Source: Butyribacter intestini
Lineage (GTDB): Bacteria; Bacillota; Clostridia; Lachnospirales; Lachnospiraceae
Direction of reading: 5' to 3'
DNA: 64,000 nucleotides
Assembly: GCA_001414325.1 (NCBI GenBank)
Contig: LLKB01000005.1
Location: forward strand, 722,912-786,911
Both the position numbers and the translations under genes were made by a program. How positions within the stretch are numbered: the first letter of the stretch is position 1; the number at the start of each line of letters is the position of its first letter. The notes below the pieces were generated by a model. It did not search any database. It was not told the DNA's origin and saw only the letters and a program-made list of their open reading frames with translations. Of this stretch, positions 45,461 through 64,000 are shown piece by piece.

Positions 45461-46837
45461 CTAATAAGCAAAATTATTTGCTATATAATTAAAATCTTCG
45501 TAGCTGTATTCTTTTGCACCTGATGATATTCCAAGTTTTTTGCAATATTGATTTCTCTTTCTTCCGAAATTGTCAAAATTACTTTTCTCAGCAGATGTGA
45601 ATACACTTCGTATCTTATTTGGATCGTCCCCTAAATTTTGATACCATGACTTACTTCCAAAATATACTACAAGTGAATTTGTTGAAAATTGTGCTCCATA
45701 TCTTGCAGATATTTCATTTATCGCAAGCGTAAACCAGCAGGCTATCTCTCTGTCAGTTGCCCCTTTTCCTTTAAGCCATGTCTCTATTTCATCAACATCC
45801 ATAACATAATTACGGCTGTCATATGCTACAAATTCATTTCCATAACTGTCATAATTATCTCTGATACTTGGAAGATATTTGTATTTGTAGATAACTTTTT
45901 TCTTTGCTTCTGTATTATTTACAACATTTTTGTATTTTTTTACAGAAGTTATCAACTCATTTTTATATGTATTCAATTTTTGTTCCATGCCTGATTTTAT
46001 TGCATTTTCAAACTCCTGCAATGCCTCTAATGCACTATTTCTGTTCGTAATAATATTTTCGTTTCCGGATATATCCTTTCCGCTTGCTGTCTCGTCTATC
46101 TGCACTATATTGTCTTTGTACTTTTTCCAAACTGCATAATTCTCCTGTGCATCACCATATTTGTTGCACTGACTTACTACTTTCTTAAAGTCTTTTTCTA
46201 AGCTGTCCATGTCATTTGCTTTTATTGTATTTTTTAGTTTTTTTACGGCTTTTTCGCTTGCGGACTTATAACTGCGGCATTGTTTTGTCAGCTTATTTTC
46301 TTTTATTTTTTTATTGTATTCTTTTATTTTATCTGAATATTCTTTAACTTTACTATTATACTGTTTTAACTCCGTAACCACATTGTTTAAACTTTTTATG
46401 CTGTCTTTTATTTCTTCCTCATCTGATGAGTCAATATTTTTTATCATCGCCGTAAGTTCATCAAATTTTTCTTTATTGTCGCCTAAAAAACTTATTCCGG
46501 CTTTTTCTATATTTTCTTTCAACTGATTATAATCGTCGTTCAGGTAATCCTTAGATGAACTTCCTTTCATATTTGCAAAAACCGCAATAGCAAGCATAGC
46601 TGCCATAACAACTCCTAACAGAGCATTGCATATGTATATACCTTTTGAAGTTTTTACTGTCTCATAATCATGTGCTCCTTTTACATTGTTGTAATCTATA
46701 TTACTATTTCCATTTATATTGTTACCTTGAAAGTTTATATTACTGTTTCCATTTGCATTCCCCACATTAGCACCGCATTTTTCACAAAACATATCTGCAT
46801 CGCCAAGTATATTTCCGCAATTATAACATTTCTTCAT
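45461..46837 (-). CDS. Zinc-ribbon, single-pass, coiled-coil protein
   Basis: A 458-residue protein: N-terminal zinc ribbon (CYNCG at 4-8, CEKCG at 18-22), an Asn-rich linker (GNSNINFQGNNINGNSN), one membrane segment at about 70-90 (NALLGVVMAAMLAIAVFA), a long Lys/Glu-rich helical region (about 95-330) and a C-terminal domain with ATDREIACWFTLAINEISARYG. No enzyme motif is recognised. The topology puts the ribbon inside and the helical and C-terminal parts outside. The 3' flank shares TTAACACAACATATAATTA with the flank of the gene at 47953. Confidence 0.7.
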   Translation of the reverse strand: MKKCYNCGNILGDADMFCEKCGANVGNANGNSNINFQGNNINGNSNIDYNNVKGAHDYETVKTSKGIYICNALLGVVMAAMLAIAVFANMKGSSSKDYLNDDYNQLKENIEKAGISFLGDNKEKFDELTAMIKNIDSSDEEEIKDSIKSLNNVVTELKQYNSKVKEYSDKIKEYNKKIKENKLTKQCRSYKSASEKAVKKLKNTIKANDMDSLEKDFKKVVSQCNKYGDAQENYAVWKKYKDNIVQIDETASGKDISGNENIITNRNSALEALQEFENAIKSGMEQKLNTYKNELITSVKKYKNVVNNTEAKKKVIYKYKYLPSIRDNYDSYGNEFVAYDSRNYVMDVDEIETWLKGKGATDREIACWFTLAINEISARYGAQFSTNSLVVYFGSKSWYQNLGDDPNKIRSVFTSAEKSNFDNFGRKRNQYCKKLGISSGAKEYSYEDFNYIANNFAY

Positions 46838-46864
46838 TTCTGCCTCGCTTTCTATAGTTCCTCC

Positions 46865-47812
46865 CTATAAGATTTCCAGAATTTCTGAGCCATCTGCTAT
46901 TATCAGCTTTTCTTTCTGAGTCAGTTTTATTGTCTCTCCGTCCCGTATGATTTTCCCATCCTCAAAGCGTATGCCATTTTTTGAATAACATATAATACTT
47001 ATAAACGTTCCCGAAACATCCATAAAAATCGTGCAATGTTTTCTGCTTACTTTCGGGCTGCTAAGCACAAGATTACATTGCCCCGGGTCACGCCCGACCA
47101 CTATACTTTCTCCGGGACTTAATTGCAATGATGCCCCTTTAAATGTTCCCTCCGTACCTAATATCATCCCTTTAAGTGTTGTTCCGTAAACAGTCGGTGG
47201 TACCAGTATCGCATCTGGCTTATTTTCAAAAGCTCCCTGCTGAATATCATTGTCATAATAACCATATTGCTGCTGGATATTTTCCCCATAACCATTTCCA
47301 TTAAAATCACTTGAAACCGAATTGTTGTCATACACATTTTTTTGTATTTCATTTTCACTTTTTATGCACCCCATTACAATGTCATATACTAATATGCCTA
47401 TTGTGCTCAATAATATAAACAAAAATCCAAATTTTACTGAAATGCCTTTATCTCTGACTCCTGTTATTGATATGTAAGCAAACATTTCCATTATCAATAT
47501 ACAAACTGATGATATTATTGATATAACTGCCCCTGCCATAAACTGCTTATTAGCAAGTCCTATCACCAGAAAAGTTATTGCCATAATAAACAGCAAAAGC
47601 AATGTGACTATCACAAAATTTCTTAAAGAATTAAGTGCATTAACATATTCTTTTGAAAGGTCTATAGACGAATAAGATAATATTGTTATTCCATTGTAAA
47701 GTTTGTAACTGCCCGAATTGTAACTTACCAAAGGCATAAATAAACTTAGCAAAAGCATTATACATATCTCAATTCCCGGTAATGTAAAAATTATATTCAT
47801 CTTTTTCTTCAT
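46865..47812 (-). CDS. Membrane protein with C-terminal FHA domain
   Basis: A 315-residue protein with four membrane segments in the first 145 residues, a polar Asn/Gln linker and a C-terminal FHA domain (about 220-315). The phospho-threonine-binding residues are present: Arg in VVGRDPGQC, Ser and His in SRKHC, Asn in YSKNGI. FHA domains bind pThr peptides made by Hanks-type kinases, four of which are encoded 5-12 kb upstream in the same direction. It is a candidate membrane receptor for kinase substrates. Confidence 0.85.
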   Translation of the reverse strand: MKKKMNIIFTLPGIEICIMLLLSLFMPLVSYNSGSYKLYNGITILSYSSIDLSKEYVNALNSLRNFVIVTLLLLFIMAITFLVIGLANKQFMAGAVISIISSVCILIMEMFAYISITGVRDKGISVKFGFLFILLSTIGILVYDIVMGCIKSENEIQKNVYDNNSVSSDFNGNGYGENIQQQYGYYDNDIQQGAFENKPDAILVPPTVYGTTLKGMILGTEGTFKGASLQLSPGESIVVGRDPGQCNLVLSSPKVSRKHCTIFMDVSGTFISIICYSKNGIRFEDGKIIRDGETIKLTQKEKLIIADGSEILEIL

Positions 47813-47869
47813 TTGCTATTCCCCCTAAGTAACTTGTTATGATAAGGATTTTTTGATTGTATTACAACG

Positions 47870-47908
47870 CTAATTTACAAACAGATGGTCTCTCTTTTTG
47901 TAATAAAT
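47870..47908 (-). pseudogene. C-terminal relic of a zinc-ribbon membrane protein gene
   Basis: The minus strand reads IYYKKRDHLFVN and a stop, matching the last residues of the protein at 43846 (VYYKKRDHLFVN). Nothing upstream remains of the gene. It shows that a paralogue was lost between the FHA gene and the gene at 47953. Confidence 0.75.
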
Positions 47909-47952
47909 GTAATTTAACACAACATATAATTATTTTCACAATCACCTATATC

Positions 47953-49305
47953 TTATGAAAATAATCCTCTTAAAAGCCACCCACCTATACCGCTTATTGA
48001 ATCTGATATTGCCTGCTGGATAAAATAACCTAAAATCTTTCCAACTATCAGACTTACTATAAACAATACAATGTGCATTACCAGTATCTCATACAGTTTT
48101 ACAGATGGCTCTCTTTCAAGTACTTCAAAATATCCGTATAAAAAGATAAAGTTTGTAAACATAACTATAGGTATCACAAGCAACATTACTATCAGCATTA
48201 TTATTGCTCCAATATCTGAATTAAATATCTTTGCGACATACATCATTGCTATAAAAAATATTATATATGCTGTGAAAAGTATTACTCCAGCCAATGTCTT
48301 TACGGCTATTACCGCATAGGTCTGTATGAAAGTTATATTTTCATGGAACAGATATTTGCTCACGACAAACATTACTCCTGCAACAAGCAGCCCCCACAAA
48401 AACATCCCAATCAGTATCAGTATGGCATATTTCATTACACTATTGAGCATATCTTGAAATACACTTCCAAATATCTGATCCTCTAAATTTGCTCCTATTA
48501 TCGCACACGCTATAAGCAGTTCAATCAATAAGACAAACATTGATATGCCTGATATTATAAGCGACTCAGCTATTGAGTTTGAATTTCCAAGATTTTTTAC
48601 GGCATTTAACGGTGACCTGAATATATCTACTGCAGTAGACAATATTCTTTTTCCAATTCCCGATGCCATCTGGGAGATATTACCCTGATTTCCATTTGGC
48701 TGCGGCACCTGATTCCAACCGGAATAACCTCCGTTTATCGGCTGTTGTCCCGGATACCCTCCCGGATAATCTCCGTTTATCGGCTGCTGTCCAGGTGCTC
48801 CTCCCTGATAATTTCCGTTTATCGGCTGCTGTCCCGGATACCCTCCCGGATAGTTTCCTCTTATCGGCTGCTGTCCAGATGCTCCTCCCGGATAGTTTCC
48901 TCTTATCGGCTGCTGTCCAGGTACTTCTCCCGGATAATTTCCGTTTATCGGCTGCTGTCCCGGTACTCCTCCCGGATAGTTTCCTCTTATCGGCTGCTGT
49001 CCCGGTACTTCTCCCGGATAATTTCCGTTTATCGGCTGCTGTCCAGATACTCCTCCCGGATAGTTTCCTCTTATCGGCTGCTGTCCAGATACTCCCCCAA
49101 GATGATTTCCGTTTATCGGCTGCTGTCCCGGTACTCCTCCCGGATTATTTATTTTCCGATTCTGTTCTTTTTGTTTCTGCATATAATACTGTTTTCTTAA
49201 CTGTTCCTGTTCTTTTGCGAACTCAATCTCACGCTTTTTGCTCTGCTCGCAGTTACATTTCTCACCGTTTTTTAATTGCTTTCCGCAATATCTGCAAAAT
49301 GCCAT
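47953..49305 (-). CDS. Zinc-ribbon membrane protein with ten 14-residue tandem repeats
   Basis: A 450-residue protein: zinc ribbon (CRYCG at 4-8, then CNC), a charged helix ([19 protein letters not shown]), ten tandem copies of PGG(V/Y/A)PGQQPI(N/R)GNY (about 54-193), a Gly/Asn linker and five or six membrane segments. The membrane part resembles Yip1-like proteins but is not clearly assignable. ATG 49305 follows AAAGGAG. The repeats encode a disordered, proline-rich, cytoplasm-facing linker that could bind partners multivalently. It lies between two FHA genes. Confidence 0.75.
48724..49143. repeat. 42-bp tandem minisatellite, ten units
   Basis: Ten in-frame 42-base units, each with CCG/CCTCTTATCGGCTGCTGTCC as core, encode the 14-residue protein repeats. 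Two types alternate (INGNY and IRGNY units), suggesting growth by doubling of pairs. Copy number is likely to vary between strains. Confidence 0.9.
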
Positions 49306-49382
49306 TTTTATCTCTCCTTTCCGTTTGCCGTTCATCGCTGCCATGCTGTCAGCAATGATTACATTCACTCTTTTTCTTATGT

Positions 49383-49751
49383 TTATCTAAGCTTATACAA
49401 GTTGTCCTCATTTCCCATATACAACTCCTCTGCTGATGAAAGATAATATTCCTTTTCTCTTTCAAGCCTTGCTCCGTTTCCTAGAAATGTTCCATTTTTT
49501 GAATAATCCACTACACGATACTTATTTAATGCTCCTACATATGTTATCTCGCAATGCTTTCTACTCACCTGTGCATCTGTTATCGCATATGTGCATTGTG
49601 TCGCATCCCTGCCAAATATCACCTTTTGGTCACTTGGCAGAGGTATCAGCTTTCCGATATGCGTTCCTCTTATACATATCAAACCTCCCTGTTTATCCTC
49701 AGATAAAGCAAGGCTTCTTGTCACCTGCATTGTCAATATATCATTTTTCAA
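49383..49751 (-). CDS. Stand-alone FHA-domain protein
   Basis: A 122-residue soluble protein that is essentially one FHA domain: [17 protein letters not shown] and [12 protein letters not shown] carry the Arg, Ser/His and Asn expected to hold phospho-threonine. A TTG start at 49751 is supported by AGGGGGG 6 bases upstream; a nearby ATG is out of frame. It directly follows the LytTR regulator gene by 11 bases, so the two are co-transcribed. It could act as an adaptor between kinases and their partners. Confidence 0.87.
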
Positions 49752-49762
49752 TTCAATCCCCC

Positions 49763-50449
49763 CTATAATATTTTTTTGATTTCTTCCTGATAGCGTCTGC
49801 TTATCGGTAATACACTTTCACCTACTTTTATCTCTGTTCTCGAACTTCCCGTTATATATTTTTTGTTTACCAGATAACTCTGATGACACCTTACAAATCC
49901 ATACTGTTTAAGCATTTCTTCAAGCTCGTTCATTTTGGCATAAAAGCTTATACTCTCGCCTTTCTGGTATATTTTTATTTTTCTTTTTTCGCCTTCAAAA
50001 TAATAGACTTTATCAAGAAGTATCTGCTCTTTTTTTCCATTTACCGATATATGCAGGCAGTTTGTGCATTTCGACCGTTCTGTCATGTACCTGCCTATTT
50101 CATCATCTAGACGCTTTTTGTCTACAGGCTTTAATATGTATGAAAATGCCTTATAAGTATATCCGTCAAATATATGCTCCGCAGATACAGTTATAAATAT
50201 AATATCCACATCAACATTGTTTTCCCGTATATATTTTGCAGTATTCAATCCGTCATATTCCGGCATATTTATGTCTAAAAGCAACAGGTCAATGTCAAAT
50301 TCTTCTTTTTCTATATCATCAACCACCTGTTTTCCCGACATATAATGTACTACTTGTGCATCGTCATAAGAAAATATTGAATGTATCACTAAATCATGTA
50401 TCTTTTCTCTATACTCTCTGTCATCATCACATATTCCTATCCGTAACAT
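49763..50449 (-). CDS. LytTR-family response regulator in the kinase/FHA cluster
   Basis: A 228-residue regulator: receiver with CDDD at 7-10, phospho-acceptor in LLLLDINMP and Lys of LKPVDK, then a LytTR DNA-binding domain (about 125-228) with YYFEGEKRKIKIY and FVRCHQSYLVN. No histidine kinase is nearby, but four Ser/Thr-kinase-like genes lie directly upstream on the same strand. It may be phosphorylated by an unlinked sensor or respond to the Ser/Thr kinases. The 21-bp-spaced direct repeats at 25-38 kb are candidate sites for it. Confidence 0.9.
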   Translation of the reverse strand: MLRIGICDDDREYREKIHDLVIHSIFSYDDAQVVHYMSGKQVVDDIEKEEFDIDLLLLDINMPEYDGLNTAKYIRENNVDVDIIFITVSAEHIFDGYTYKAFSYILKPVDKKRLDDEIGRYMTERSKCTNCLHISVNGKKEQILLDKVYYFEGEKRKIKIYQKGESISFYAKMNELEEMLKQYGFVRCHQSYLVNKKYITGSSRTEIKVGESVLPISRRYQEEIKKIL

Positions 50450-50559
50450 ATCCTACCTCATACTTCACCCTGACTGTTCATCCTCCGCACCAGTTTTTTT
50501 GCGTTACCATCCACACTGTAAATGTGAACAATAATGCTTTGCTTTTGCGGCTGATAACT

Positions 50560-52152
50560 TTATCCCAGTTTTATTGCTTCATGTCTTCCTGCCATATACA
50601 ATATTGTTCCCGGTGCAACACTTACATACTGACCTTTTATTGCTTTTGTTCCATCCGAAAATTCAATTCCATTTGATGAATAATCTATAACATAATATCT
50701 TTGCTCTGTACCGTTATATCTTATTCCACAATGTCTTCTGCTTATCTTCGGATAACTAAATACAAGTGTCGCACACTTCGGATCTCTGCCGAGTATCACT
50801 TCATCTCCGTCATTCATCACAAGTTCGGAAGAACTGTATTCTCCCTCCATTCCATATAAGCATCCTGATTTTGGAAGCATGCCCGGTGTAGGTTTATATC
50901 CTCCCGGCTCTGGCTCTGCACCAGTGCCTATATCATCACCTGCAACTGTCATATCTCCTGCATAATTTCCTGACACGAAATCCACCGGCGGCATTCCCGT
51001 CATATAATGCTTTCCGTCTTCACCAACATAACCATCCGGATTTGGTGGCATCGGCGGTGTTAAAATTTGATTTTTTCCATCATCATGCTGTGGCGGCATC
51101 GGCGGGTCATATGGATATTGTGGATTTATCGGCTGTGGCGGTATCGGTGGTATCGGAAAATCCCATTCTTCCTCTGACTCCTCCTTTTCCATTTCAGGTT
51201 TTAATGCCGTCATAAAGAGTATTCCTGCTACAATGAGAAACACTCCTGCCACAAGTGTTACATATACACCTGCTCCCGTGCAGTTGCTCATTATTTTTGA
51301 CACGGCATATTTGCCTACACCGTCTATATCAAACAATCTTGCATCGACAAGCGTGATACTTTTTACATAATCGTCTATCTTGTCCCATATCATTCCCGGT
51401 ATCATAAATGAATAGATAAGCCTTGCAACAACAGTCACTGCTCCCGTGGCTATAATCATTATCTGGTTTGTCTTTCCTGTGACAGCAATGACTATAAGCG
51501 ATGCTACTGCCAAAAGTACAGGAATTAACAATAATATTGCCATAATCTTAAATACATTCTTTACATCACTGTCACTCAGCTTTTTTGCCGATTTTTTAGC
51601 GGAATTGCTTTTTTTAGCCGTCGATTTTTTTGCCTTATTTTTACTTTTTGAACTTTTCTGTTTCGTTGTTGTCTTTTTGGTTGATTTCTTTGTTGACTTC
51701 TTTGAAGATTTTTTCATCTTTGCCGATGCTTTCTGTGCCGAGAGAATACCTGTATTTTGGGCACTCTTACTGCCTGATTTTTTTTCACCGGCTTTTTTTG
51801 TTATTCCCTCTATATCGTCAATCTCATCATCAGCAGTAAAGAGCCATTTGACTAACATTATCTGTGAGATAGAACTTCCTTTGTCTTTCTTATCAATCTT
51901 ATCATCAAATTCTTTTACCTTATCATCCCATTTACTTGTATTTTCTTTGTATTTGTCTATGACTTTTTTATCAACCTGTGCCTTTTTTGCTGTTTTTGAG
52001 TCCTCGTCTTTTGCATACTTATTTATCTGTACTGCCGTTTTCAGATATTTTTCTCCCGAAATGCTCATTGACGGCAAAAACAGTGATATTATTATGATTA
52101 TCATAAAAACAGCACCGACACACATCTGCCATTTAAAACCTTTTTTCTCCAT
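50560..52152 (-). CDS. Multi-pass membrane protein with Lys-rich segment and C-terminal FHA domain
   Basis: A 530-residue protein. One N-terminal membrane segment, an outside-facing helical region, a strongly basic block (about 140-185, KKSTKKSTKKTTTKQKS), three more membrane segments (about 200-310), a Pro-rich linker (PPIPPQPINPQYPYDPPMP) and a C-terminal FHA domain (about 435-530) with LGRDPKC, SRRHCG and DYSSNGIEF. Ser/Thr-rich, Lys-rich stretches are possible kinase targets. It sits between the LytTR gene and the kinases, 9 bases from the latter. Confidence 0.83.
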   Translation of the reverse strand: MEKKGFKWQMCVGAVFMIIIIISLFLPSMSISGEKYLKTAVQINKYAKDEDSKTAKKAQVDKKVIDKYKENTSKWDDKVKEFDDKIDKKDKGSSISQIMLVKWLFTADDEIDDIEGITKKAGEKKSGSKSAQNTGILSAQKASAKMKKSSKKSTKKSTKKTTTKQKSSKSKNKAKKSTAKKSNSAKKSAKKLSDSDVKNVFKIMAILLLIPVLLAVASLIVIAVTGKTNQIMIIATGAVTVVARLIYSFMIPGMIWDKIDDYVKSITLVDARLFDIDGVGKYAVSKIMSNCTGAGVYVTLVAGVFLIVAGILFMTALKPEMEKEESEEEWDFPIPPIPPQPINPQYPYDPPMPPQHDDGKNQILTPPMPPNPDGYVGEDGKHYMTGMPPVDFVSGNYAGDMTVAGDDIGTGAEPEPGGYKPTPGMLPKSGCLYGMEGEYSSSELVMNDGDEVILGRDPKCATLVFSYPKISRRHCGIRYNGTEQRYYVIDYSSNGIEFSDGTKAIKGQYVSVAPGTILYMAGRHEAIKLG

Positions 52153-52161
52153 GTGTACCTC

Positions 52162-53506: not shown

Positions 53507-54646
53507 TCAATCCTCACTGTGCTGTTTTAAATATTGCATTGCTGCTTCTTCTCTTGTAATATCAGGTATTGGCATTATCTCAGGCATTGTCTTTTGCCTC
53601 ACTGCCTCGGCAGCTGGTTTTTGCGGTCTCTCTCCCGGCAGATACTCATGATAAAGTTCATAATACAACTCTGCCATTGACTGGTATCTGTCCTCTATCT
53701 GCACATTAAGACCTTTTAATATAGCATTTGCCTGATAATCTTCTATTTCTATATTGAACATATTAAGAGGTATTGTCTTATCTTCTGCGACACGCTCATA
53801 AGCTTTTTGCAATTTTATCCCCGTCAGCAGATAATACATTGTGGCACAAAGACTATACACATCTGTCCACGGTCCCTGATTTCCGTTTCTGTCATACTGC
53901 TCTATAGGTGCATAACCATGTTTCAGAAAAATGGATGTCTCCTGTCCTGCTCCACTGTGTTTTGCAGCTCCAAAGTCTATCAGTTTTGCCTTAAATTTGT
54001 CGTTGAGCATAATATTGTCAGGACTTATGTCCCTATGTATCACACCAGCCTTGTGCACGCTGTTCAATGCCTTAATAACATCTTTTAAAAGTTCAAACAA
54101 TATATAACTCTGTAAAACTCCACCTGAGCTTTTTGCAAACTGCCTGAAATTTATCCCGTCTATATATTCCATAACTATATATGCCGTCTTGTTTCCGTAA
54201 AAGAAATCCCTTACGGAAACTATTCCCGGCATACCATAAAATTTTGAGAGTGTTTCTGCTTCTTTTATATATCCCTTAAGACCGCCAAGATAAGCAGCCT
54301 TTTTTGTATTTACCGTAAACACATCCATACTGTATGTACTATATTCCGTGGAATAGGTTGTCGTCTGCTCTCTCTTTGCCACGCCTTTTGGAAAATATTC
54401 TTTTATACATACCTTTTTGCTCTGGTAAAAATCCCATCCTATATAGGTAATGCCAAAACCACCTATTCCTATGACTTTTCCGACAAGATATTTGCCGTTG
54501 AGTATCTCGTACGGTGGCATACCATTTTCCGGCTGTTGATAATCTTTTAATGAAAATCCGCATTTTGGACATGGCACACCGGTGTTTTCCAATAACTCCA
54601 TACATCCCATACAAAGCCTGTTGGGGTCAACAAGTGTTTTGTCCAT
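53507..54646 (-). CDS. Zinc-ribbon Ser/Thr protein kinase
   Basis: A 379-residue soluble kinase: zinc ribbon CMGC/CPKC at about 12-30, kinase domain about 45-320 with GIGGFGITYIG, the Lys in VCIKEYFPKG, HRDISPDNIML, LIDFGAAKH and YAPIEQY, then a short Pro/Glu-rich tail. All catalytic residues are intact. ATG 54646 has AGGAGG 8 bases upstream. The residues EYFPKG after the ATP-binding Lys and the insert before the C-helix are shared by all four kinases of the cluster, which therefore form one subfamily. Confidence 0.92.
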   Translation of the reverse strand: MDKTLVDPNRLCMGCMELLENTGVPCPKCGFSLKDYQQPENGMPPYEILNGKYLVGKVIGIGGFGITYIGWDFYQSKKVCIKEYFPKGVAKREQTTTYSTEYSTYSMDVFTVNTKKAAYLGGLKGYIKEAETLSKFYGMPGIVSVRDFFYGNKTAYIVMEYIDGINFRQFAKSSGGVLQSYILFELLKDVIKALNSVHKAGVIHRDISPDNIMLNDKFKAKLIDFGAAKHSGAGQETSIFLKHGYAPIEQYDRNGNQGPWTDVYSLCATMYYLLTGIKLQKAYERVAEDKTIPLNMFNIEIEDYQANAILKGLNVQIEDRYQSMAELYYELYHEYLPGERPQKPAAEAVRQKTMPEIMPIPDITREEAAMQYLKQHSED

Positions 54647-54756
54647 TTTTACCACCTCCTTCTATATTTAAAGATATTTAATAAAGCGTACATTCGCAAT
54701 CAGCCTTATCCACCGCTTAATACTTCACAAAAAGCGGGTAAATTCTTATTCTACAT

Positions 54757-56832
54757 TTAAAAACCAAAGTCACTGTCATCTCTTACAAACTCATCAGCTC
54801 TTGATTTTTTCTTTGTTTTTTTCTTGTCTGACTTTTTACCTGTATTTTTTTTCTTACTGCTTCCGTCCAAACCCGAACTTTTTCCTTTCGACTTATCCGA
54901 TTTTTTGCTGCTGTCAGGCTTCGGTGCCGCAGGTGCAGGCGGTTCAATAGGTGCAGGAGTAGGTGTCGGTGCACCGAGACTTACCACAATACTTACTTTT
55001 TTAGGAACTTTTTCCTTTTTAGGGATATTTTTGTCTTTGCTGTTACTGTTATATTTTTTTCCTGACTTTGGTTCCTGGCTTATTATGTCGCCCTTAGCAA
55101 CACTTTCGCTTATAACCTGGTCTTTTGTCGTAAGTTTTATCTTGCACTTATACTTTTTATTCAGCTTATCCATAACAGATTTTGCCTCATCAAGATTTTT
55201 GTCCTTTAAGTTTGGCAGTTTGAACACATACTTGTCCTTTTTGCCCCATGATATATAAAATTTAAGTTTGTCTATATCTTTTGATGAAACATCGCCGCTC
55301 TTGCTTTGTTTGAAGCACTTGTCTTTTGAAGCCGAATTGTAGTCATATTTAAAACTTATGTCTGATGTGACACCTGCATTTTTAAGGTTTGTCTCTATCT
55401 CACTTTTTGACATTTTAGTCATTTTTTCTATGGTGACTTTCCCGGCACTTCTGACGGTCACTTTTACTACTTTATCATCCGGAATATCTGCTCCCTGTCT
55501 CGGCTCAGTGTCCTCCACTTTCTCGCTCTTACAGGCTTTATCATATATATATGTAACTTTTGCCTTGCAGCCTGCATCATCCAGATTTTTCTTATATTCT
55601 TCCCAAGTGGTGTTTCCTCTCTGATATGCTGCCATCTTTTCAACATTTGAACCGGAATTGTCACCTCTGTTTTTATTTATGACTCTGTTTGCAACACTTA
55701 CACCTGCAAATACCGCACCTGCACAAACAGCCATGCTGCCTGCAAGTATTGCTGCCCTCTGCCATGCCGCCATCGCCATAAACTTCTGCTTCAGACGGTT
55801 TCCGACCGTGTCCTGGTCGTCCTTTACTTTTGGCAAAATCCATTCCGGCTCATATACCGGAACGAAATTTTTGCCATCGAGTGCCTCCATGAAATCTTCC
55901 GCACATTGAAGCCTGAACTGTGGCTGTATATTAAGGCAGGTCATTATGGCAAGTTCTGCCTGCTCCGGAATATTTATCCCGACCTCAGACAATGTAAGCA
56001 GCTTATCCTCCTGTGTCCTGTCATTTGCAGGCTGAGGTTTTGCCCCCGTCAACATTCTGTAGAAAAGTGCCGCTACCGCATACAAATCCGTATATGGTCC
56101 CTGCACTGCTTTTCTTCCATACTGCTCGATAGGTGCGTAACCCTCTTTAAGCACAATTGCCGTATTTTCATTTTCAACACGCTCAGCATATTTTGCCGCT
56201 CCAAAATCTATAAGTTTGATAACACCTTCATTTGTAACAATAATGTTGTCAGGTGCTATGTCCCTGTGTATTACACCACGCTTATGTATTTCTTTAAGAG
56301 TGTAGAGTATCGTAAGCACAACTCGTCTTGCCCAGTCATACTCCACTCTGTTGCCCTTAAGTTTAAGGATATGTTTTACATCCATTCCTTCAAGGAACTC
56401 CATCACGATGTAACCGGTGTTGTTTTCCTCAAAGAAGCTGTAAACCTGAACAACACCTTTTACATCCTGCAGGTTTGCTATACTTCTCGCTTCTTCGAGG
56501 AAGTGACGGAGACCTATCTTAAAACGCTCATGCCTTACGCTCTCTGATATTACCGATACAGTGCCCGTAGTTCTCTCTCTGCCAGAAAGCTGCTTAGGAA
56601 AATACTCCTTTATGGCGACTTTGCATTGCAAAAGGTTGTTCCAGCCTATATAGGTATTTCCAAATCCACCTGAGCCAAGCAGTTTGCCGACGATAAACTT
56701 TCCCTGCAATACCGTACCCGGCTTGAGACACATATCAGCATTGTATTCTATATTTAATTTTTCTTTACAATACGGACAGATATCCTTTGTATTGTCAGCT
56801 ATCTGCCGCATACAGCTATAACAAAATCGCAT
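54757..56832 (-). CDS. Zinc-ribbon Ser/Thr kinase with membrane segment and PASTA-like repeats
   Basis: A 691-residue membrane kinase. Zinc ribbon CYSC/CPYC (4-24), kinase domain (about 40-310) with GSGGFGNTYIG, VAIKEYFPK, HRDIAPDNI and LIDFGAAKY, a membrane segment at about 363-383, and an extracytoplasmic part with three PASTA-like modules (e.g. VEDTEPRQGADIPDDKVVKV; ISQEPKSGKKY). It ends in a Pro-rich and very basic tail. PASTA kinases of the PknB/PrkC type sense muropeptides or lipid II; here a zinc ribbon precedes the kinase, which is not usual for PrkC. Confidence 0.9.
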   Translation of the reverse strand: MRFCYSCMRQIADNTKDICPYCKEKLNIEYNADMCLKPGTVLQGKFIVGKLLGSGGFGNTYIGWNNLLQCKVAIKEYFPKQLSGRERTTGTVSVISESVRHERFKIGLRHFLEEARSIANLQDVKGVVQVYSFFEENNTGYIVMEFLEGMDVKHILKLKGNRVEYDWARRVVLTILYTLKEIHKRGVIHRDIAPDNIIVTNEGVIKLIDFGAAKYAERVENENTAIVLKEGYAPIEQYGRKAVQGPYTDLYAVAALFYRMLTGAKPQPANDRTQEDKLLTLSEVGINIPEQAELAIMTCLNIQPQFRLQCAEDFMEALDGKNFVPVYEPEWILPKVKDDQDTVGNRLKQKFMAMAAWQRAAILAGSMAVCAGAVFAGVSVANRVINKNRGDNSGSNVEKMAAYQRGNTTWEEYKKNLDDAGCKAKVTYIYDKACKSEKVEDTEPRQGADIPDDKVVKVTVRSAGKVTIEKMTKMSKSEIETNLKNAGVTSDISFKYDYNSASKDKCFKQSKSGDVSSKDIDKLKFYISWGKKDKYVFKLPNLKDKNLDEAKSVMDKLNKKYKCKIKLTTKDQVISESVAKGDIISQEPKSGKKYNSNSKDKNIPKKEKVPKKVSIVVSLGAPTPTPAPIEPPAPAAPKPDSSKKSDKSKGKSSGLDGSSKKKNTGKKSDKKKTKKKSRADEFVRDDSDFGF

Positions 56833-56864
56833 ATATGTTTCCTCCTGAAAGATTTGTACTAAAT

Positions 56865-59237
56865 TTAGTTACTGCTAGGTCCAAAGTCATGAGCATATCC
56901 GGTATCCTTTTTACTGCTACCACTACCCTTTGAACTTCCATCAGACTTTTTAGGTGTGCTGTCGCTATTACCACCTCTGCTATTGCCACTTGGTTTTGTA
57001 GCTGTTTGAGGTTTCCTTGTCACTACCGGCTTTGGTGTAGGTTTTGGCTCAGCAGAAATCTTAAGCCTGTCGCCCTGCTTAAACTCAGTAACATTTGACT
57101 TTCCGTTTACCCATACTTTTTTGACAATATAATTGTCAGGATATTTTGTTCCAAGTAATGCACCGGCATTTGAAGCATATCTTTTTAGTCTTGCAACAGT
57201 AAGTGAACTGTTTATCGATACATGGCTTCTGACTGTGGCAAAAAGCTTTCCGTCACCGTTTTCAGAATCATCATTTCTTCCGTCATAGCCCTTTTTATTT
57301 TTAAGACTTTTAGAGAGAACTTTTACTATAGTTCCCCTGCCATATCTGAAACTTACATACTCACTTGAATATTTGTCCGATGACAGAGTGCGAAGTCTTG
57401 CCCTGTTTCCTGTTTTATGGTCTTTAGGATTTTTGCTGTAGACAAACTTAACTGACGATATACTCTTTCCTTCAAATGTACCGTATCTTCTACAGTTTGC
57501 TTTCGACATTGTGTAATATGCACCGGTATGGTATATAAACTGAATCTTCTTCTTGGAAGTATCCATTCCGTTTATCTTTGCAGTCTGTCTCTTTATCTCG
57601 CTGTCAGCTTTCGCCGTATCAGAAGCATATTTCTTTCTTATCGCATCAAGGTCTATTGTATTTTTGTCATATATTATCTTTGACAAAGTTCCGTAAGCCT
57701 GTGTATCATCACCTTTTTTCAGGCTGACTCCGTCAGGTATATAGCTCTGCATATATACATCTTTAGATGCTTTTATACGCTTTTTGACAGACGCACTTTG
57801 AGCCCACCTTGTGTTGGTGCAGTTTTTAAGCCACTTTTCTGAAAATGTTACATTCTTTGTACTTGCGACTATGACATTTGCATATACCGTCCTGTTTTTC
57901 TTTATGTCCGAGTTCACTTCATCCAAAGTTCTTCCGTCCTTAAGCACATCATTTGTCTTATCATTGTATTCAAGCACCGTACCCTCGGCATTGTTTGGGT
58001 CATATCTGTACTCAACAGTCCTGTTTTCTTTTTTAAGACCAAAATCTGTCCACTCTTTATCAAAATCAGCAAGCGTCATATCACCGCTTTTTACTTCGCT
58101 GACAATCTTAAATTTTTCCTGTGTCGCACCCTGGTTGCTGCTTCCTCCGTCATGCAGTCCCTTTATCACAACTGCACCTCCGGCAATAACAGCCACACCT
58201 ACAACTGCTACAAGACCTTTCACCCATATAGGCATTTTTCCCGTGTCACGCTTTGCACGCTTTACTTTGCGTCTTTTTGTATCGGAAGAATTAAGCTCTT
58301 TGTAAAACTCCTGTGCAGTCTTTGTCCTGTCATCCTGATACACATTTAAGGCATTCATAAGTGCGTTTTCCATCGACTGGCTTATACCTGTGTTTAATTT
58401 TGACGGCTCTGTTATCTCATCAGATAATGCTCTGTCTACAGACTCAGGCGGCACTTTTCCCGTTATCATCCTATACATGACTGCCGCAAGAGCATAAACA
58501 TCCGTCCACGGACCTCTTTTTCCCTGACTTCTGTACTGTTCTTCCGGTGCATAGCCCTGTTTTAATATGATGGCAAGACTTTTTGAATTTGCCGTCGTTA
58601 CATATCTTGTCGCACCAAAGTCTAACAGTTTCACTTCACCCTGCTCAGTTATAAAGATAGTCTCAGGTGCTATATCACAATGGATAATGTCAAGCGGATG
58701 CACTTTTATAAGTCCGATAAGTATCTGTGATATAAACTGTTTTGCCTCCTCAGGTTTATATACCTTTCCCGTATCAAGAACTTCTTTTAATGTCGTTCCC
58801 ACAAGGTACTCAGATATAACATACCCTGTATCATTTTCAGCTATACAGTCATAAACTTTTGCAACTCCCTGCGTATCGGCAAGCTGCTGTATCTTGTTTC
58901 CCTCATTTAAAAATGTTTCAAGACCATGTGAAAACTGTTCGTACGCATCTCCTGAATATATAGTGACTTCACTCTCTCCGTCAGAACGTGTTGAAAAGTC
59001 ACTCGGAAGATACTCGCTTATTATGACTTTATGCTGTGCCTCGGCATCAAAGCCGAGGTATTTTACCGTATATCCGCCGTACTCCAACGCTTTACCTACG
59101 ATAAACTTTCCTCCGATAATAGTACCCGGATCCAGATAATATGATTTTTCCCTGACATTCGACTGGTCATATCCGCAAGCCGGACATATTTTGTCGTTGT
59201 CAGAAACCTGGTTCATACAACCCATACAAATTTTCAT
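56865..59237 (-). CDS. Zinc-ribbon pseudokinase with membrane segment and large extracytoplasmic domain
   Basis: A 790-residue protein with the layout of its neighbours: zinc ribbon CMGC/CPAC (4-21), kinase fold (about 42-310), membrane segment (about 338-360) and about 430 extracytoplasmic residues. Catalytic residues are altered: the glycine loop is LEYGGYT, the ATP-binding Lys of the VAIKEYFP block is S74 (VIISEYLP), and the catalytic-loop Asn is Thr (HCDIAPETI). DFG remains. It is therefore likely to be catalytically weak or dead and to act as a scaffold or sensor. The outer region has a first PASTA-like unit and then novel sequence. Confidence 0.85.
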   Translation of the reverse strand: MKICMGCMNQVSDNDKICPACGYDQSNVREKSYYLDPGTIIGGKFIVGKALEYGGYTVKYLGFDAEAQHKVIISEYLPSDFSTRSDGESEVTIYSGDAYEQFSHGLETFLNEGNKIQQLADTQGVAKVYDCIAENDTGYVISEYLVGTTLKEVLDTGKVYKPEEAKQFISQILIGLIKVHPLDIIHCDIAPETIFITEQGEVKLLDFGATRYVTTANSKSLAIILKQGYAPEEQYRSQGKRGPWTDVYALAAVMYRMITGKVPPESVDRALSDEITEPSKLNTGISQSMENALMNALNVYQDDRTKTAQEFYKELNSSDTKRRKVKRAKRDTGKMPIWVKGLVAVVGVAVIAGGAVVIKGLHDGGSSNQGATQEKFKIVSEVKSGDMTLADFDKEWTDFGLKKENRTVEYRYDPNNAEGTVLEYNDKTNDVLKDGRTLDEVNSDIKKNRTVYANVIVASTKNVTFSEKWLKNCTNTRWAQSASVKKRIKASKDVYMQSYIPDGVSLKKGDDTQAYGTLSKIIYDKNTIDLDAIRKKYASDTAKADSEIKRQTAKINGMDTSKKKIQFIYHTGAYYTMSKANCRRYGTFEGKSISSVKFVYSKNPKDHKTGNRARLRTLSSDKYSSEYVSFRYGRGTIVKVLSKSLKNKKGYDGRNDDSENGDGKLFATVRSHVSINSSLTVARLKRYASNAGALLGTKYPDNYIVKKVWVNGKSNVTEFKQGDRLKISAEPKPTPKPVVTRKPQTATKPSGNSRGGNSDSTPKKSDGSSKGSGSSKKDTGYAHDFGPSSN

Positions 59238-59352
59238 AGCGTTCCCTCATTTCCGTATATTTTTACACAAACTTTTCGGTGTTTAACAGGTCATACAGAC
59301 AGATAGCACACTGCATATAAACATACATTACTTTCTGCTTTTGACCTTTACA

Positions 59353-61161
59353 TTATTTCTGCTTAACTACATTAATTTTAGATTTATTATTGTGTTTCCA
59401 TGCCTTATAAGTATCAGCGTTCGTGTTTAATAAAAATTTCATTTCAAAGTTGGTTATTTTAACCGTATATCCTTTTATAATCACACTGTTTTTCTTTTTC
59501 TTAATAGGCAACTTAACCAGCCTGTAGCATCTTGAATTCCAATAATTATTACCTTTTGCCATAATATATACATGGCTTAGATTACTCATAACAAAGCTGT
59601 TAATTTTTACTTCCAACTGCTGTTTTTTCTTTGAATATGTTGCCGTATATTTAATCTGCGGAATTTTAGATTTCACCGTAATCTTAATCTTATTTTTTCC
59701 AATGACATATGTAACAACAGCCTTGCCTGAAAAATATTTCTTCACACTTATCTTTCCGTTCTTTGCATTTACAGAAAGATTTTTCTTGTATTTTGACGGC
59801 ACTGTGATTTTTTTAACATTAGGGCTTGTTCCAAATATTCCCTTTGAAGTAGCAGAACTTCCCCATGCAACCGTAATTACAGACTTATATACTTTCACCG
59901 TAAATTCACATTTAACAGTCTCGTATCCATCTGCTGATATTTCACAATAGTATGTGTATTTTCCTATTTTTGCTTTTTTAGGTGTCTTGTAGCTGCTCTT
60001 TTCAGACAATGATTTGTCACTGCCTTTTTTGTACCATTTATAAGTACACTGAGTATCTGTCTTTACAGTTACTTTTAAATTTAATGCCGTACCGCTTTTT
60101 ACATATTTGTCAGAGTTGTCATAATTTACTGAAAGTTTCTTATTAGGAGTTTTTGATGGCTCTACTGTAGGTGTCACCATAGGAGTCTGACTTGGCTCTG
60201 CAGTTGGTATTCCTGTAGGACTCTGGCTTGGCTCTGTTGTCGGTGCTCCTGTCGGGCTCTGACTTGGCGTTGCCATCGGGGTCGCTATTGGTGTTGCTGT
60301 CGGGGTTTCCGTTGGTGTTGCTGTTGGCGTCGCTGTCGGTGTTGCTGTCGGGGTTTCCGTTGGTGTTGCTGTTGGCGTCGCTGTCGGTGTTGCTGTCGGG
60401 GTTTCCGTTGGTGTTGCTGTTGGCGTCGCTGTCGGCGTCGCTGTCGGCGTTGCCGTTGGGGTCGCTGTTGGCGTTGCCGTTGAGGTCGCTGTTGGTGTTG
60501 CCGTTGGGGTCGCTGTTGGGGTTGCCGTTGGGGTCGCTGTTGGCGTTGCCGTTGGCGTCGCTGTTGGTGTTGCCGTTGGGGTCGCTGTTGGCGTCGCTGT
60601 CGGGGTCGCTGTCGGCGTTGCTGTCGGAGTTTCCATTGGAGTAACTTTTGCTATCTCGATAATTTCTGTGTGCAGATAAGCAACCTTTCCGTCTGATAAC
60701 TTAAATTTTGCATAAATTACTATCTGTTTTCCTGCATAATCTGATAATGTTATTTTTTGATTGCTATATTCAATCCAATGTGCAGCAGTACTACCATCTA
60801 AACTTTTCAACTCATTTAAATCTTTTACTTTATAAGCATCATCATTCATTTCATCTATGTAGTAATGGAACTCGTTTGTCGTACTACTATCATCACTACC
60901 TGTAATAGTAAATGCAGCTTTAGATACTGCCACTGTTTCTTTTTCTGCCGTGCCTGTATATTCACTATATTTTCCGTTCCAATCCTTTGCGTCATCACTA
61001 TTAGTTTCTCCGCTGACTTCTATCGCACATTTTGATGCTGCTACAATTCCTTCTAGATTTGTCACTTCTGCCTGTGCTTTTACTGTCCCAAAGTTTATCC
61101 CGGTAAATAAAGAAAAAATCATTGCTATTGCAACCAGCATTGCCATATTTTTTTTATTCAT
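59353..61161 (-). CDS. Secreted protein with long TPTA repeat tract
   Basis: A 602-residue exported protein. Signal peptide about 1-31 ([15 protein letters not shown]), an N-terminal domain (about 35-165), a tract of about 135 residues made of TPTA and TPTE units, a looser Thr-Pro-Ser linker, an Ig-like domain (CTYKWYKKG, about 365-410) and a C-terminal basic beta domain. The repeat tract (DNA 60245-60640) is a minisatellite and could be O-glycosylated. It is only 12 bases from the FHA-ABC exporter gene, so the two are probably expressed together and the exporter may serve the same envelope process. Confidence 0.8.
60245..60640. repeat. 12-bp/6-bp coding minisatellite
   Basis: Repeats of GTTGCTGTCGG-like 6- and 12-base units encode the TPTA tract. 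The antisense strand is open as well, which is an outcome of the repeat and not a second gene. The tract is a likely site of length variation. Confidence 0.85.
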
Positions 61162-61173
61162 GTCTTTTACCTC

Positions 61174-63561
61174 CTATCGTGTATCTTTCTTAAGATTTCT
61201 AAGTACAATTACACTTATCACTCCGCATACTGCCATCATTAAAAATAATATCAGCCATGTATTAGTCAGATGTGATGCTCCTCTATTGTATAAATCATTA
61301 TGTTCATGTGGCATTCCTGTCACTTTCATATTCAGTTTATTTAAGTTTGTGATATTTCCAAGACACTCCATAGACCATCTGCTGACAGTAATGTAAGATA
61401 TTTTGTCTGCCGCACCTTTTAACTCAAATAATACGCCTGAGAATAAAAGCTGTATTATAAGTACAAATGGTGCAAGTGCCATAGCCCTGTCACTGTTTCT
61501 TACACATGATGACACTATAAGTCCCAATGCTGCAGACGCATATATCGTAAGGAATATCGTGAGCCATATCTCAAGCTGCGGAGTTGGAAGTACCTGTTCC
61601 TTTTTAGGTGCGTGTTTCATAAGCACCAGAAACAGTCCCGTCAATATGGTAGTCTGCATAAAGCATACAACCGCCTGCACTATATATTTTGACAATATAT
61701 ATGTCCATAGTCGCAGATTTCCCATGTATTCACGCTTCAGTATAGGTCTTTCCTTACATACTTCCTGTATCGTGTTGAACAAGCCTATCCATATTCCGGA
61801 GCAGGCAAGTGCAAACATTATCGACTGTGTCGAGTCATATATCTTAAAAACATCTTTTTTTGCCACTACTTTTAACAAAAGAGCGATTATGAACGGCTGC
61901 AATAAAAGCAATAAAAGTCTTTGTCTGTCATTAAAAACAAGTTCAAAATATCTCTTTGTGAGAACTCCAAGCTGCTTTAACGGTGATGTTTTCTTTCCTG
62001 AGTCTTTTATCATGTCTGATATTTTTTCATTCTCATTTACTTCAGGTATCTCCGTGTTCTTGTCAAGATGCTGCTCTTTATAAAGCATAAGATATTTCAT
62101 ATTCCACATATCAACATTCGAAGCAAGCTCGCTATACACATCCACAAGACTGTCTTTTCCAAAATATTCATACATTTTGTCCGGTTTGCCACAGTAACAG
62201 ATTTTTCCTCCCGGTCCCATAAAGATAACTTTGTCACAAAGGTTTATGTTCTGCACTGTATGTGTTACCATGATTATTGTCTTATTCTCTGTTTTTGACA
62301 GTTTTGCAAGCGTGTTCATAAGACTTTTCTCTGTATCAGGGTCAAGACCTGATGTAGGTTCATCAAGGAAGAACAGTCCGGGGTCTGCGAGAAGCTCAAC
62401 TGCTATACTCGCTCTCTTTTTCTGGCCTCCACTGAGTTTTCTTATATATTCATTTGCTCTTTCCTCAAGTCCCACCATCTGTAAGACTTTTTGTATTCTC
62501 TCGTCTCTCTCTCCCTTTGTCGTATCTGGCGGCATCTTTAACTGTGCCGTATATTCCAACATTCTTCTCAATTTGAGATTTTCATATATTATGTCCTGCT
62601 GCGGCACAAAACCTATAATATTTTTAAGTGACTGAAAATTCTTTCTGAGGTCTATTCCATTGCAATAAACTTTTCCGGAAATGTCATAGTCAAATCCACT
62701 CATCGCATTCATAACCGTGGTCTTGCCTGCTCCCGAACCACCTATAATGGCTACGAACTCATTGTTTCCTATGTCACAAAAAACATGATTTAATATTTTT
62801 CTTCTGTCATCAGCCTTGCCGACAATCTTGTTTACATTGTGCAGCTCCAATGATGCTCCGCCTGCCGCCTGCTGGTATATGACACTGTTTTCCGAGAGGA
62901 ACATAGTTATGCCGGCAATCTGTATTATGTCGCCGTCATGTACTTCCATACTGCCTGCCCTTTGCACGATTTCGCCGTTTACATAAATACTGTTCACACT
63001 GTTGTTGTCATATATCACATAGCCGTTTGCACTATTTACAAGAAGTGCGTGTTTCCTTGACACACCTGGATTTTCAAGCACTATGTCATTGCGGCTGTCA
63101 CGCCCTATCGTTGTCTGAGGTTTTGTAAGTTTTTTTGTGCTCCAGACTGAATTTCTTGAAATACTTGAAAATACAAGTATTACATTTTTGCCGCTGTAAC
63201 TGCTGCTCCCTGCTATCCTGATAAACATATCACCCGGCTGTTTTACATAATATTTTTTGGCAAACATCGGATGGTAATTTCTGTCACGATACAGATACAT
63301 TTTTCCACTGTCATCCATATCCCCGACATAGACCATATCATTTACAAGTTTTATTTTTCCCTGTATTTCTGAAATCACCGGGTCATTTATAACTATGTCA
63401 CACTGCATCGAACTTCCAAAAAACAGTCTATCTTTTTTCATCCCGGCAAGGTCATACTCTGTTATCTGTCCGTTACTCAAAACGATAAGTTTATTAGAAG
63501 AACCGTAATACTTTGTGTTATCCACATAAACCGTTGATTGTAATCTGTCACTGTTCTGCAT
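61174..63561 (-). CDS. FHA-FHA-ABCG exporter (Rv1747-like architecture)
   Basis: A 795-residue half-transporter. Two N-terminal FHA domains: the first (about 20-105) lacks the SRxH core, the second (about 140-225) keeps IGRDSRND, SRKHA and NSVNSIYVNG. The ABC domain (about 235-460) has GGSGAGKT, LSGGQKKR, LFFLDEPTSGLD and VTHT; then an ABC2-type membrane domain with six segments. Mycobacterial Rv1747 has the same order and is regulated by kinase phosphorylation read through its FHA domains. By analogy this exporter is probably controlled by the neighbouring kinases; its cargo is unknown. Confidence 0.92.
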   Translation of the reverse strand: MQNSDRLQSTVYVDNTKYYGSSNKLIVLSNGQITEYDLAGMKKDRLFFGSSMQCDIVINDPVISEIQGKIKLVNDMVYVGDMDDSGKMYLYRDRNYHPMFAKKYYVKQPGDMFIRIAGSSSYSGKNVILVFSSISRNSVWSTKKLTKPQTTIGRDSRNDIVLENPGVSRKHALLVNSANGYVIYDNNSVNSIYVNGEIVQRAGSMEVHDGDIIQIAGITMFLSENSVIYQQAAGGASLELHNVNKIVGKADDRRKILNHVFCDIGNNEFVAIIGGSGAGKTTVMNAMSGFDYDISGKVYCNGIDLRKNFQSLKNIIGFVPQQDIIYENLKLRRMLEYTAQLKMPPDTTKGERDERIQKVLQMVGLEERANEYIRKLSGGQKKRASIAVELLADPGLFFLDEPTSGLDPDTEKSLMNTLAKLSKTENKTIIMVTHTVQNINLCDKVIFMGPGGKICYCGKPDKMYEYFGKDSLVDVYSELASNVDMWNMKYLMLYKEQHLDKNTEIPEVNENEKISDMIKDSGKKTSPLKQLGVLTKRYFELVFNDRQRLLLLLLQPFIIALLLKVVAKKDVFKIYDSTQSIMFALACSGIWIGLFNTIQEVCKERPILKREYMGNLRLWTYILSKYIVQAVVCFMQTTILTGLFLVLMKHAPKKEQVLPTPQLEIWLTIFLTIYASAALGLIVSSCVRNSDRAMALAPFVLIIQLLFSGVLFELKGAADKISYITVSRWSMECLGNITNLNKLNMKVTGMPHEHNDLYNRGASHLTNTWLILFLMMAVCGVISVIVLRNLKKDTR

Positions 63562-63584
63562 AAGCCTTTTGTCCTTTTCAAATA

Positions 63585-64000
63585 TTACTTTTCATTTATC
63601 TTCCCATCATTTGTATTTAACATAATGCAAGGTGTATGAATTTCTTTTATCATTTTCTCAAGACTTCTCTGTCCTGAGATGGCTGTTGCCGCCTCAAGTC
63701 CGTTTGAACTTAAAACTAGCGGATAGTTCTGTATCTCGCCATCTTCAAAATCATCCTGTGCTACCATGTAGTATAATAATCTTTCAGATGCAAGCTTTTT
63801 GTCTTTGTCATCATTGTCAAAGATTGAGAAAGTTCCCGTGTATCTCACAAGCATCTTTCCGTCAATAACAGGTATAAGCAGTCTGTAGCCGTCACTTTCT
63901 GCCGCCTGTGTCTTATAAAGTTCCTTGCGGTACTCTATTCCTGAAATGATATTTATTCCTTTCAGATAATTCTCACTATTACTTTCAAACTGCTTTTTTC
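63585..64000 (-). CDS. Unknown protein, C-terminal part (continues beyond window)
   Basis: An open minus-strand frame runs from the window edge to the stop at 63585 without interruption, giving at least 138 residues. The ATG at 63854 is internal, since in-frame codons continue upstream of it (GYRLLIPVIDGKMLVRY). The part visible is a compact alpha/beta sequence with no motif I recognise and no membrane segment. It lies 23 bases upstream of the FHA-ABC gene and is likely part of that operon. Confidence 0.7.
   Translation of the reverse strand, partial: KKQFESNSENYLKGINIISGIEYRKELYKTQAAESDGYRLLIPVIDGKMLVRYTGTFSIFDNDDKDKKLASERLLYYMVAQDDFEDGEIQNYPLVLSSNGLEAATAISGQRSLEKMIKEIHTPCIMLNTNDGKINEK

Follow-up and report, generated by a model that had tools for sequence, protein, structure and literature searches.

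We have analyzed a 64,000-nucleotide stretch of the genome of Butyribacter intestini (the window, positions 722,912 to 786,911 of contig LLKB01000005.1, or G000:C5:722912-786911), a Lachnospiraceae bacterium with a genome of 3.61 Mb in an assembly that is 99.64% complete. The end of the window, from position 45461 onwards, is occupied by a cluster of genes coding for protein kinases, FHA proteins, an FHA-bearing ABC exporter and a LytTR regulator (Table 1). A previous reading made from the letters alone (the sequence-only reading) had listed here four kinase-fold genes with zinc-ribbon heads, four FHA genes and one receiver-LytTR regulator, all on one strand and at operon spacing, and Pfam together with a check of the positions confirmed this set. 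The kinase, FHA, ABC, ABC2_membrane, receiver and LytTR genes all lie on the minus strand and score above the curated Pfam cut-offs. The intergenic gaps range between -34 and +140 nt from the first PP2C phosphatase gene (L003:9287-10021) through to 45461, where the next gap is 192 nt, the operon limits being set by gene spacing alone. Several ribbon-headed membrane proteins had also been described and were recovered at 45461-46837 and 47953-49368, with a similar one just outside (43846-44733). The cluster extends about 9 kb beyond position 64000 on the same strand, into the piece named L003 (C5:786001-806000 of the same genome), and the PP2C and vWA genes that the sequence-only reading had proposed to look for are present there. 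What that reading had overlooked was the C-terminal end of a fifth zinc-headed kinase (63585-63998).

Table 1. Genes of the cluster and its flank, in window coordinates or in those of the adjoining piece L003
Position	Strand	Feature	Basis or remark
40070..45268	-	seven more same-strand genes, all with signal- or transmembrane (TM)-like segments (one LprI, one zinc-ribbon membrane protein)	192 nt after the cluster
45461..46837	-	ribbon-headed one-TM protein, YARHG-like C-terminus	YARHG 26.1 bits against a cut-off of 27
46865..47812	-	multi-pass membrane FHA protein, four predicted TM	FHA 42 bits
47953..49368	-	ribbon-headed, repeat-rich, five-TM protein, one CxxC	no Pfam or NCBIfam match
49383..49751	-	small soluble FHA protein; adjoins LytTR here, in L060 and in G031	FHA 54 bits
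49763..50449	-	receiver-LytTR response regulator; same family in L060 and G031	Pfam
50560..52152	-	multi-pass membrane FHA protein, four predicted TM	FHA 39 bits
52162..53517	-	zinc-headed soluble kinase, stretch of about 140 amino acids between ribbon and kinase domain; HCD/DMG replace HRD/DFG	Pfam and motif reading
53507..54655	-	zinc-headed soluble kinase, motifs intact	Pfam and motif reading
54757..56832	-	zinc-headed kinase, one TM, three PASTA repeats, motifs intact	Pfam, TM prediction, motif reading
56865..59237	-	zinc-headed probable pseudokinase, one TM, ectodomain	Pkinase 94 bits; catalytic residues lost
59353..61161	-	secreted protein: signal-like N-terminus, long T-A-T-P stalk, Ig-like part (sub-threshold)	sequence reading and domain scan
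61174..63561	-	FHA-FHA-ABC ATPase-ABC2 membrane protein (Rv1747-like ABCG half-exporter), FHA-I degenerate, FHA-II intact	Pfam FHA x2, ABC_tran, ABC2_membrane
63585..64000	-	zinc-headed kinase, C-terminal end (63585-63998 coding), one TM, ectodomain of about 400 amino acids	whole gene L003:496-2790, 764 amino acids; orthologues in L065, L152, L154
L003:2811-3860	window strand	four-TM FHA	past window end
L003:3870-4751	window strand	zinc-knuckle FHA	past window end
L003:4755-5627	window strand	PP2C	past window end
L003:5630-6856	window strand	kinase-FHA	past window end
L003:6840-8657	window strand	vWA-TM-FHA	past window end
L003:8624-9262	window strand	zinc-knuckle FHA	past window end
L003:9287-10021	window strand	PP2C (first PP2C gene)	past window end

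In total the cluster holds nine FHA genes, six kinase-fold genes and two PP2C genes in 27.7 kb. A scan of the whole genome for FHA gave 10 matches in nine genes, eight of them in the cluster and one outside, and hmmscan added the ninth cluster gene; thus nine of the 10 FHA genes found in the 3.61 Mb fall inside these 27.7 kb, although the scan, having overlooked one cluster gene, may have overlooked others elsewhere. The same applies to six of the 11 kinase matches of the genome. The one FHA gene found outside, a DUF6382-FHA gene (L004:2910-4184), adjoins small genes that by eye have TadE-like N-termini. As to mobility, the GC content of the cluster is 0.387, against 0.355 for positions 1-40000 of the window, and a search of 72,556 plasmid records with the vWA-FHA protein gave no match at 1e-10. 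Promoter-like patterns (85 against 64.6 and 36 against 32.1 in shuffled sequences) and terminator-like ones (18 against 11.0 and 7 against 5.9) were counted and not used for operon structure.

The four window kinases match the Pfam Pkinase model with 94-119 bits (cut-off 31.7). As for their zinc ribbons, all four start with a CxxC...CxxC pattern, but the Pfam zinc-ribbon models matched three of them below threshold (E 0.007-0.09) and 53507-54655 not at all. Three zinc-headed kinases carry a TM helix and an ectodomain. The catalytic motifs H[RC]D..N and D[FM]G are kept in five of the six cluster kinases; here and for the vWA metal site we use the customary motif names. The kinases at 52162 and 53507, the one at 54757 and the fifth kinase have the glycine loop, a VAIK-like Lys, H[RC]D...N and D[FM]G, and the kinase-FHA fusion has the glycine loop, HRDISPDN and DFG, with the Lys invariant in five aligned sequences. 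The product of 56865-59237 has no glycine loop (EYGGYT), a Ser in place of the VAIK Lys (VIISEY) and a Thr in place of the catalytic-loop Asn (HCDIAPET), and is a probable pseudokinase by these residues. The ectodomain of the fifth kinase had suggested by eye a solute-binding protein, an idea that was not supported. Its AlphaFold2 model, computed on two sequences only, had a pLDDT of 33, profile searches against the PDB returned one phage protein at E 0.29 and in the second search nothing, and the ectodomains of three orthologues had no Pfam match. Aligned by hhalign with a nearby putative binding protein it gave 0.3%, the comparator being a poor yardstick as it has no Pfam binding-protein match itself.

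The residues of FHA domains that bind phosphothreonine (pThr) are described as GR, SxxH and N in the parts of the reports cited here (PMC1262709; PMC5549992). By residue reading, all of them are kept in seven of the 10 FHA domains of the cluster, and both zinc-knuckle FHA proteins show SRxKH and lack an evident NG. In the vWA-FHA protein the G-R, S, H and N of the FHA domain and the metal-site D, S, T and D are conserved in five of five sequences, and simple hydropathy places the vWA domain outside the membrane and the FHA domain inside. The Asp, DG and DN motifs of PP2C are kept in all 16 aligned sequences. The exporter gene at 61174-63561 has the layout of Rv1747, with two N-terminal FHA domains, an ABC ATPase and an ABC2 membrane domain in one chain, and its FHA-II keeps G-R, S-x-x-H and N. 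Its AlphaFold2 model (21 homologues) had a mean pLDDT of 80.3 and a pTM of 0.78, and Foldseek against the PDB returned ABCG2, ABCG25, ABCG5/8, ABCG16 and ABCG1 at 18-23% identity; among the matches listed, 48 of 50 were labelled ABCG and two only "ABC transporter". ABCG transporters move lipids and small amphipathic molecules. A protein cargo is therefore unlikely, and the probable substrate is a lipid-like or small molecule of the envelope.

To find out how this set is preserved, we compared the neighbourhoods of the vWA-FHA gene in other genomes, with about 14-40 kb covered per locus and some contigs ending inside the neighbourhoods. The 13 loci cannot be taken as a single unbiased sample, since the family search supplied 10 of them (the window genome and G031 included) and the exporter search three (L060, L072 and L075); G125 was left out as its match ends at a contig edge. 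Although the vWA-FHA proteins of four relatives have only 20-28% identity to that of the window genome, PP2C and kinase genes were found within 6-7 genes of vWA-FHA in all 13 loci, with a PP2C gene at most three genes downstream in every one of them. A zinc-knuckle FHA gene (detected by a regular expression) was near in 12 of the 13 and a kinase-FHA gene in eight. The usual order is PP2C, zinc-knuckle FHA, vWA-TM-FHA, in some cases kinase-FHA, then PP2C, zinc-knuckle FHA and more FHA and kinase genes. Deviations consisted of kinases inserted before the first zinc-knuckle FHA gene (L151, L158) or located upstream instead (L157), absence of the upstream PP2C (G031) or of the zinc-knuckle FHA gene (L156), and a locus cut at its start (L072). 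In L158 the vWA-FHA gene (L158:8806-10302) reads as three open reading frames and is apparently disrupted, with an unbroken copy on another contig of that genome. A class-wide scan for vWA-FHA gave nine of 393 genomes passing 1e-30; in eight of these the alignment is confined to the vWA part (model positions 43-341), the window genome alone being full-length.

The same was done around the exporter. Nine of 200 family genomes (the window genome included) have a long match to the FHA-ABC protein in one chain uninterrupted by a stop, with split or partial matches in others, and scanning named genomes yielded 22 clear relatives, mainly from metagenome-assembled genomes of Lachnospiraceae, Oscillospiraceae and other Clostridia according to the record titles. 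From 80 loci we kept these 22 (L060-L080 and L084) and 50 control ABC loci (L090-L139), omitting eight distant ABCG relatives (L081-L083, L085-L089). G107 was dropped as it is the same contig as L063, and further split or partial matches (for instance G134, G159, G175, G066, G190, G151 and G136) were omitted. Within 11 kb of the 35 FHA-ABC genes compared (five of them split into two genes, L064 truncated and without the FHA part, L065 short) there was a kinase in 26, PP2C in 20, another FHA gene in 12 and a vWA match in six, and 24 of the 35 had a kinase plus PP2C or another FHA gene. In the 50 control loci there was none of the four. The profiles for kinase, FHA and PP2C had been built from the cluster genes and refined by iteration over the loci compared, and the control loci are mostly from other phyla, with windows centred on the locus and not on the gene and some of them short; LytTR was still detected in 12 of the 50. 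As a cross-check, 11 kinase matches per 3.61 Mb would give about 0.07 per 22-kb window. The co-occurrence of these families in other genomes, which had been put forward as the check to be made, is thus borne out. Two of these loci deserve mention by themselves: a TIR domain fused to FHA lies directly upstream of the exporter gene in L061 (L061:9428-10516), and a kinase-TM-BspA-type leucine-rich repeat (LRR) protein, with a layout reminiscent of plant LRR receptor kinases, beside it in L068 (L068:6613-9900).

The domains outside the membrane differ among relatives. Their FHA proteins carry, across a predicted TM helix, trypsin-like (L075, L072, L076, L152), subtilase (L072) or thermolysin-vWA (L156) domains, and the kinase ectodomains are PASTA (window), LRR (L068, L076), SH3 (L080) or adhesin-like (L076), the topology by simple hydropathy leaving FHA and kinase inside and the other domains outside. 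Neighbouring genes without FHA code for CHAP, lectin, choline-binding and carbohydrate-binding modules. These ectodomains, together with the neighbouring wall modules, point to envelope or surface sensing. In L156 a single protein (L156:1059-4949) has thermolysin-like (M4) protease, Ig-like, vWA, TM and FHA parts.

Taken as a whole, we consider it moderately probable that the cluster encodes a conserved membrane-spanning pThr switch that senses the envelope and that in some strains controls an ABCG exporter. Because PP2C and kinase genes are present at 13 of 13 vWA-FHA loci and ABCG at five of 13, it looks like the pThr module is the core and the exporter an optional partner of some copies. 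The ectodomains would sense the cell envelope or a surface ligand and set the kinase activity. The kinases would write pThr on each other, on the vWA-FHA protein and on the tails or linkers of the FHA proteins, the FHA domains would recognize this phosphorylation and assemble the membrane proteins into a single complex, and PP2C would remove the pThr marks and reset the system. Where present, the exporter might be docked via FHA-II and gated or clustered as PknF does to Rv1747. The pair formed by LytTR and the small FHA gene, which recurs in this order in three loci (that of the window, L060 and G031), hints at a transcription branch and may pass the state of the system to transcription.

The closest precedent is Rv1747-PknF of Mycobacterium tuberculosis (see also PMC3908365), which resembles the system described here in the single-chain exporter layout, in the adjacent kinase genes and in a PP2C-type phosphatase as possible reset. 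According to the cited parts of these works, pT237 of Rv2623 binds the FHA-I of Rv1747 (PMC5549992), and condensates formed by the FHA region of Rv1747 are favoured by PknF and undone by PstP (PMC9312465). It differs from the present cluster, which comprises about 20 genes and includes several receptor-like kinases, a pseudokinase, vWA-TM-FHA, adaptors and LytTR as well as two PP2C of its own, whose exporter has a degenerate FHA-I, and whose pThr module is also found at loci where no exporter was seen. That the exporter belongs to a phospho-system, as had been supposed from the letters, stands insofar as it shares the FHA-FHA-ABCG layout of Rv1747 and has linked kinase genes, but not as a constant part of the core.

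A number of observations weigh against the pThr switch proposed above. The core is sporadic: with the vWA-FHA alignment, matches were obtained in 10 of 200 family genomes, the single genome of the same genus not being among them. ABCG is missing from the stretch covered at eight of the 13 vWA-FHA loci; of the five that have it, four were reached (also) via the exporter search, and of the 10 loci from the vWA-FHA search only two (that of the window and G031) have ABCG. In nine of the 35 FHA-ABC loci no kinase was detected within 11 kb (some of the contigs being cut short there), and in the eight more distant ABCG relatives, outside the 35, the profiles used detected neither kinase nor PP2C. In the exporter of the window FHA-I has lost R, H and N by residue reading and kept G and S, unlike the 21-sequence alignment in which R, S, H and N are at least 90% conserved, and the top PDB matches of its ATPase part in phmmer were ABCA lipid transporters, with ABCG25 lower. 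The suggestion that the kinases drive the LytTR regulator is supported by adjacency only. LytTR was within 11 kb of the exporter in six of 35 loci against 12 of 50 controls, which is no enrichment, and a degenerate direct-repeat pattern for LytTR sites had no match over 83 kb. Phosphorylation, binding and transport are all inferred from sequence here.

Among other explanations, the cluster might be a duplicated pathway of cell-wall homeostasis in the style of PASTA kinases, with the exporter as an unrelated passenger. The PASTA repeats of 54757-56832 would fit, as would the CHAP, choline-binding and SH3_3 domains in genes near the core of relatives. We regard it as unlikely given that PASTA is found in only one of the six cluster kinases, that all six score 124-191 bits with the PknB/Stk1 model (NCBIfam NF033483, cut-off 450) and that the exporter has a kinase or PP2C gene in its vicinity in 26 of the 35 loci.

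Slightly less likely still is a regulatory or assembly module of type VII secretion (of the T7SSc-T7SSj type), in which kinase, phosphatase and FHA would control secretion. Such variants are reported to encode TM kinases, PPM phosphatases, vWA and FHA proteins together, mostly in Bacillota, with possible pThr control suggested, and their T7SSc vWA protein is described as cytoplasmic in the part of the report cited (PMC11217815), whereas here vWA is predicted outside and TM-fused to FHA. In one genome (G122) the core is located about 7 kb downstream of WXG100 genes on the same contig, with a short YukD-like open reading frame (by sequence reading) and a DUF4176 gene. But the window genome, in an assembly 99.6% complete, has the core and no WXG100 match, and its only EssC-type match reaches 111.5 bits against a cut-off of 778.4. 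Six of 10 core-bearing genomes had no WXG100 match either, and of the other four only G122 has it on the contig of the core (these being draft contigs, in which linkage in the other three could go unseen). By the WXG100 and EssC tests run in the window genome, the cluster would not be a T7SS. In L152:281-7677 and L159 (G122) we noted WXG100 genes, DUF4176, trypsin-TM-FHA and DUF6382-FHA upstream of the core, a possible T7SS link there. The threonine-phosphorylation pathway of type VI secretion (PpkA, PppA, Fha) is alike in that a machine for transport is under the post-translational control of a kinase, a phosphatase and an FHA reader, as far as the cited part goes (PMC3953482). It differs in having one reader and one kinase instead of many, and no T6SS domain was found among the scanned cluster proteins, the genome itself not having been searched for one.

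A system against phages or for biological conflict, with the kinases, vWA and FHA as sensors, is very improbable. The four kinases scanned match the PADLOC models PD-T4-6 and mad6, and the TIR-FHA gene adjoins the exporter in L061. These PADLOC matches correspond to the shared kinase fold or the ABC ATPase core, plus one PP2C matching the candidate model PDC-M21C at 64.3 bits, and among the 10 cluster proteins scanned the two FHA proteins, vWA-FHA and the other PP2C had none, so that no system-specific component appeared. No nuclease domain was reported in the Pfam-scanned proteins of 45461-63998 and L003:496-10021. In the TerY-type triads vWA, PP2C and kinase genes are side by side, but these are cytoplasmic and linked to tellurium stress. 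Sets of vWA, kinase and PP2C do occur in conflict systems (PMC7159879), and the actinobacterial GAP1-N2 systems have adjacent genes for a zinc-ribbon kinase, PP2C and vWA; in the part of that report cited they centre on GTPases with a standalone vWA, whereas here no such GTPase was found among the Pfam-scanned proteins and vWA is fused to FHA. Finally, a chance pile-up of signalling genes without common function, to which the patchy distribution and the local insertions and losses could be ascribed, is scarcely credible with kinases near the exporter and absent from every control locus, and is largely refuted since gene order is similar in 13 loci despite the low protein identity.

At both ends of the cluster there are features of their own. 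An array of about 141 copies of AGCAG (99% match; L003:10326-11029) lies upstream of the first PP2C gene, some 9.4-10.1 kb beyond the end of the window. Searching the whole genome with four exact units gave 133 matches, and 100 of 100 among the matches listed were in this array. It begins at an ATG that by eye is preceded by a ribosome-site-like AAGGAG, and encodes AEQSR repeats, and its present frame runs into a stop created by one altered unit. Between the array and the PP2C gene there is a strong hairpin (z -6.7). The array may be a leader subject to phase variation, or else a curiosity of the assembly. On its far side, and divergent from the cluster, are a second LytTR regulator and a GHKL histidine kinase (L003:11328-13348). 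At the other end, the seven genes at 40070-45268 are a possible continuation of the transcript, their membership being unproven; directly downstream of the cluster is an LprI-type (lysozyme-inhibitor family) secreted protein (44771-45268). Farther away there is a predicted AAA-ATPase with a C-terminal PD-(D/E)XK nuclease (37939-39762; PF09820, PF08011).

More tentatively than for the switch itself, and with some doubt, the proteins could form a new type of surface complex. An inner pThr scaffold would tie extracellular vWA and protease modules and the ABCG exporter through FHA tails, kinases with exchangeable ectodomains (PASTA, LRR, SH3, adhesin-like) would write and two PP2C would erase, and ectodomains and effectors would be swapped between strains over a fixed core of FHA, kinase and PP2C. 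In the titles and abstract beginnings of the open-access literature, no account of this module appeared among the matches listed, and to our knowledge the Ser/Thr kinase pathways of gut Clostridia are still poorly charted. With writers, erasers and readers encoded together, the cluster would provide a parts list for pThr signalling across the membrane and for the gating of ABCG exporters. The extracellular proteases tethered by FHA and the LRR receptor-type kinases found in such neighbourhoods would be unusual for bacteria.

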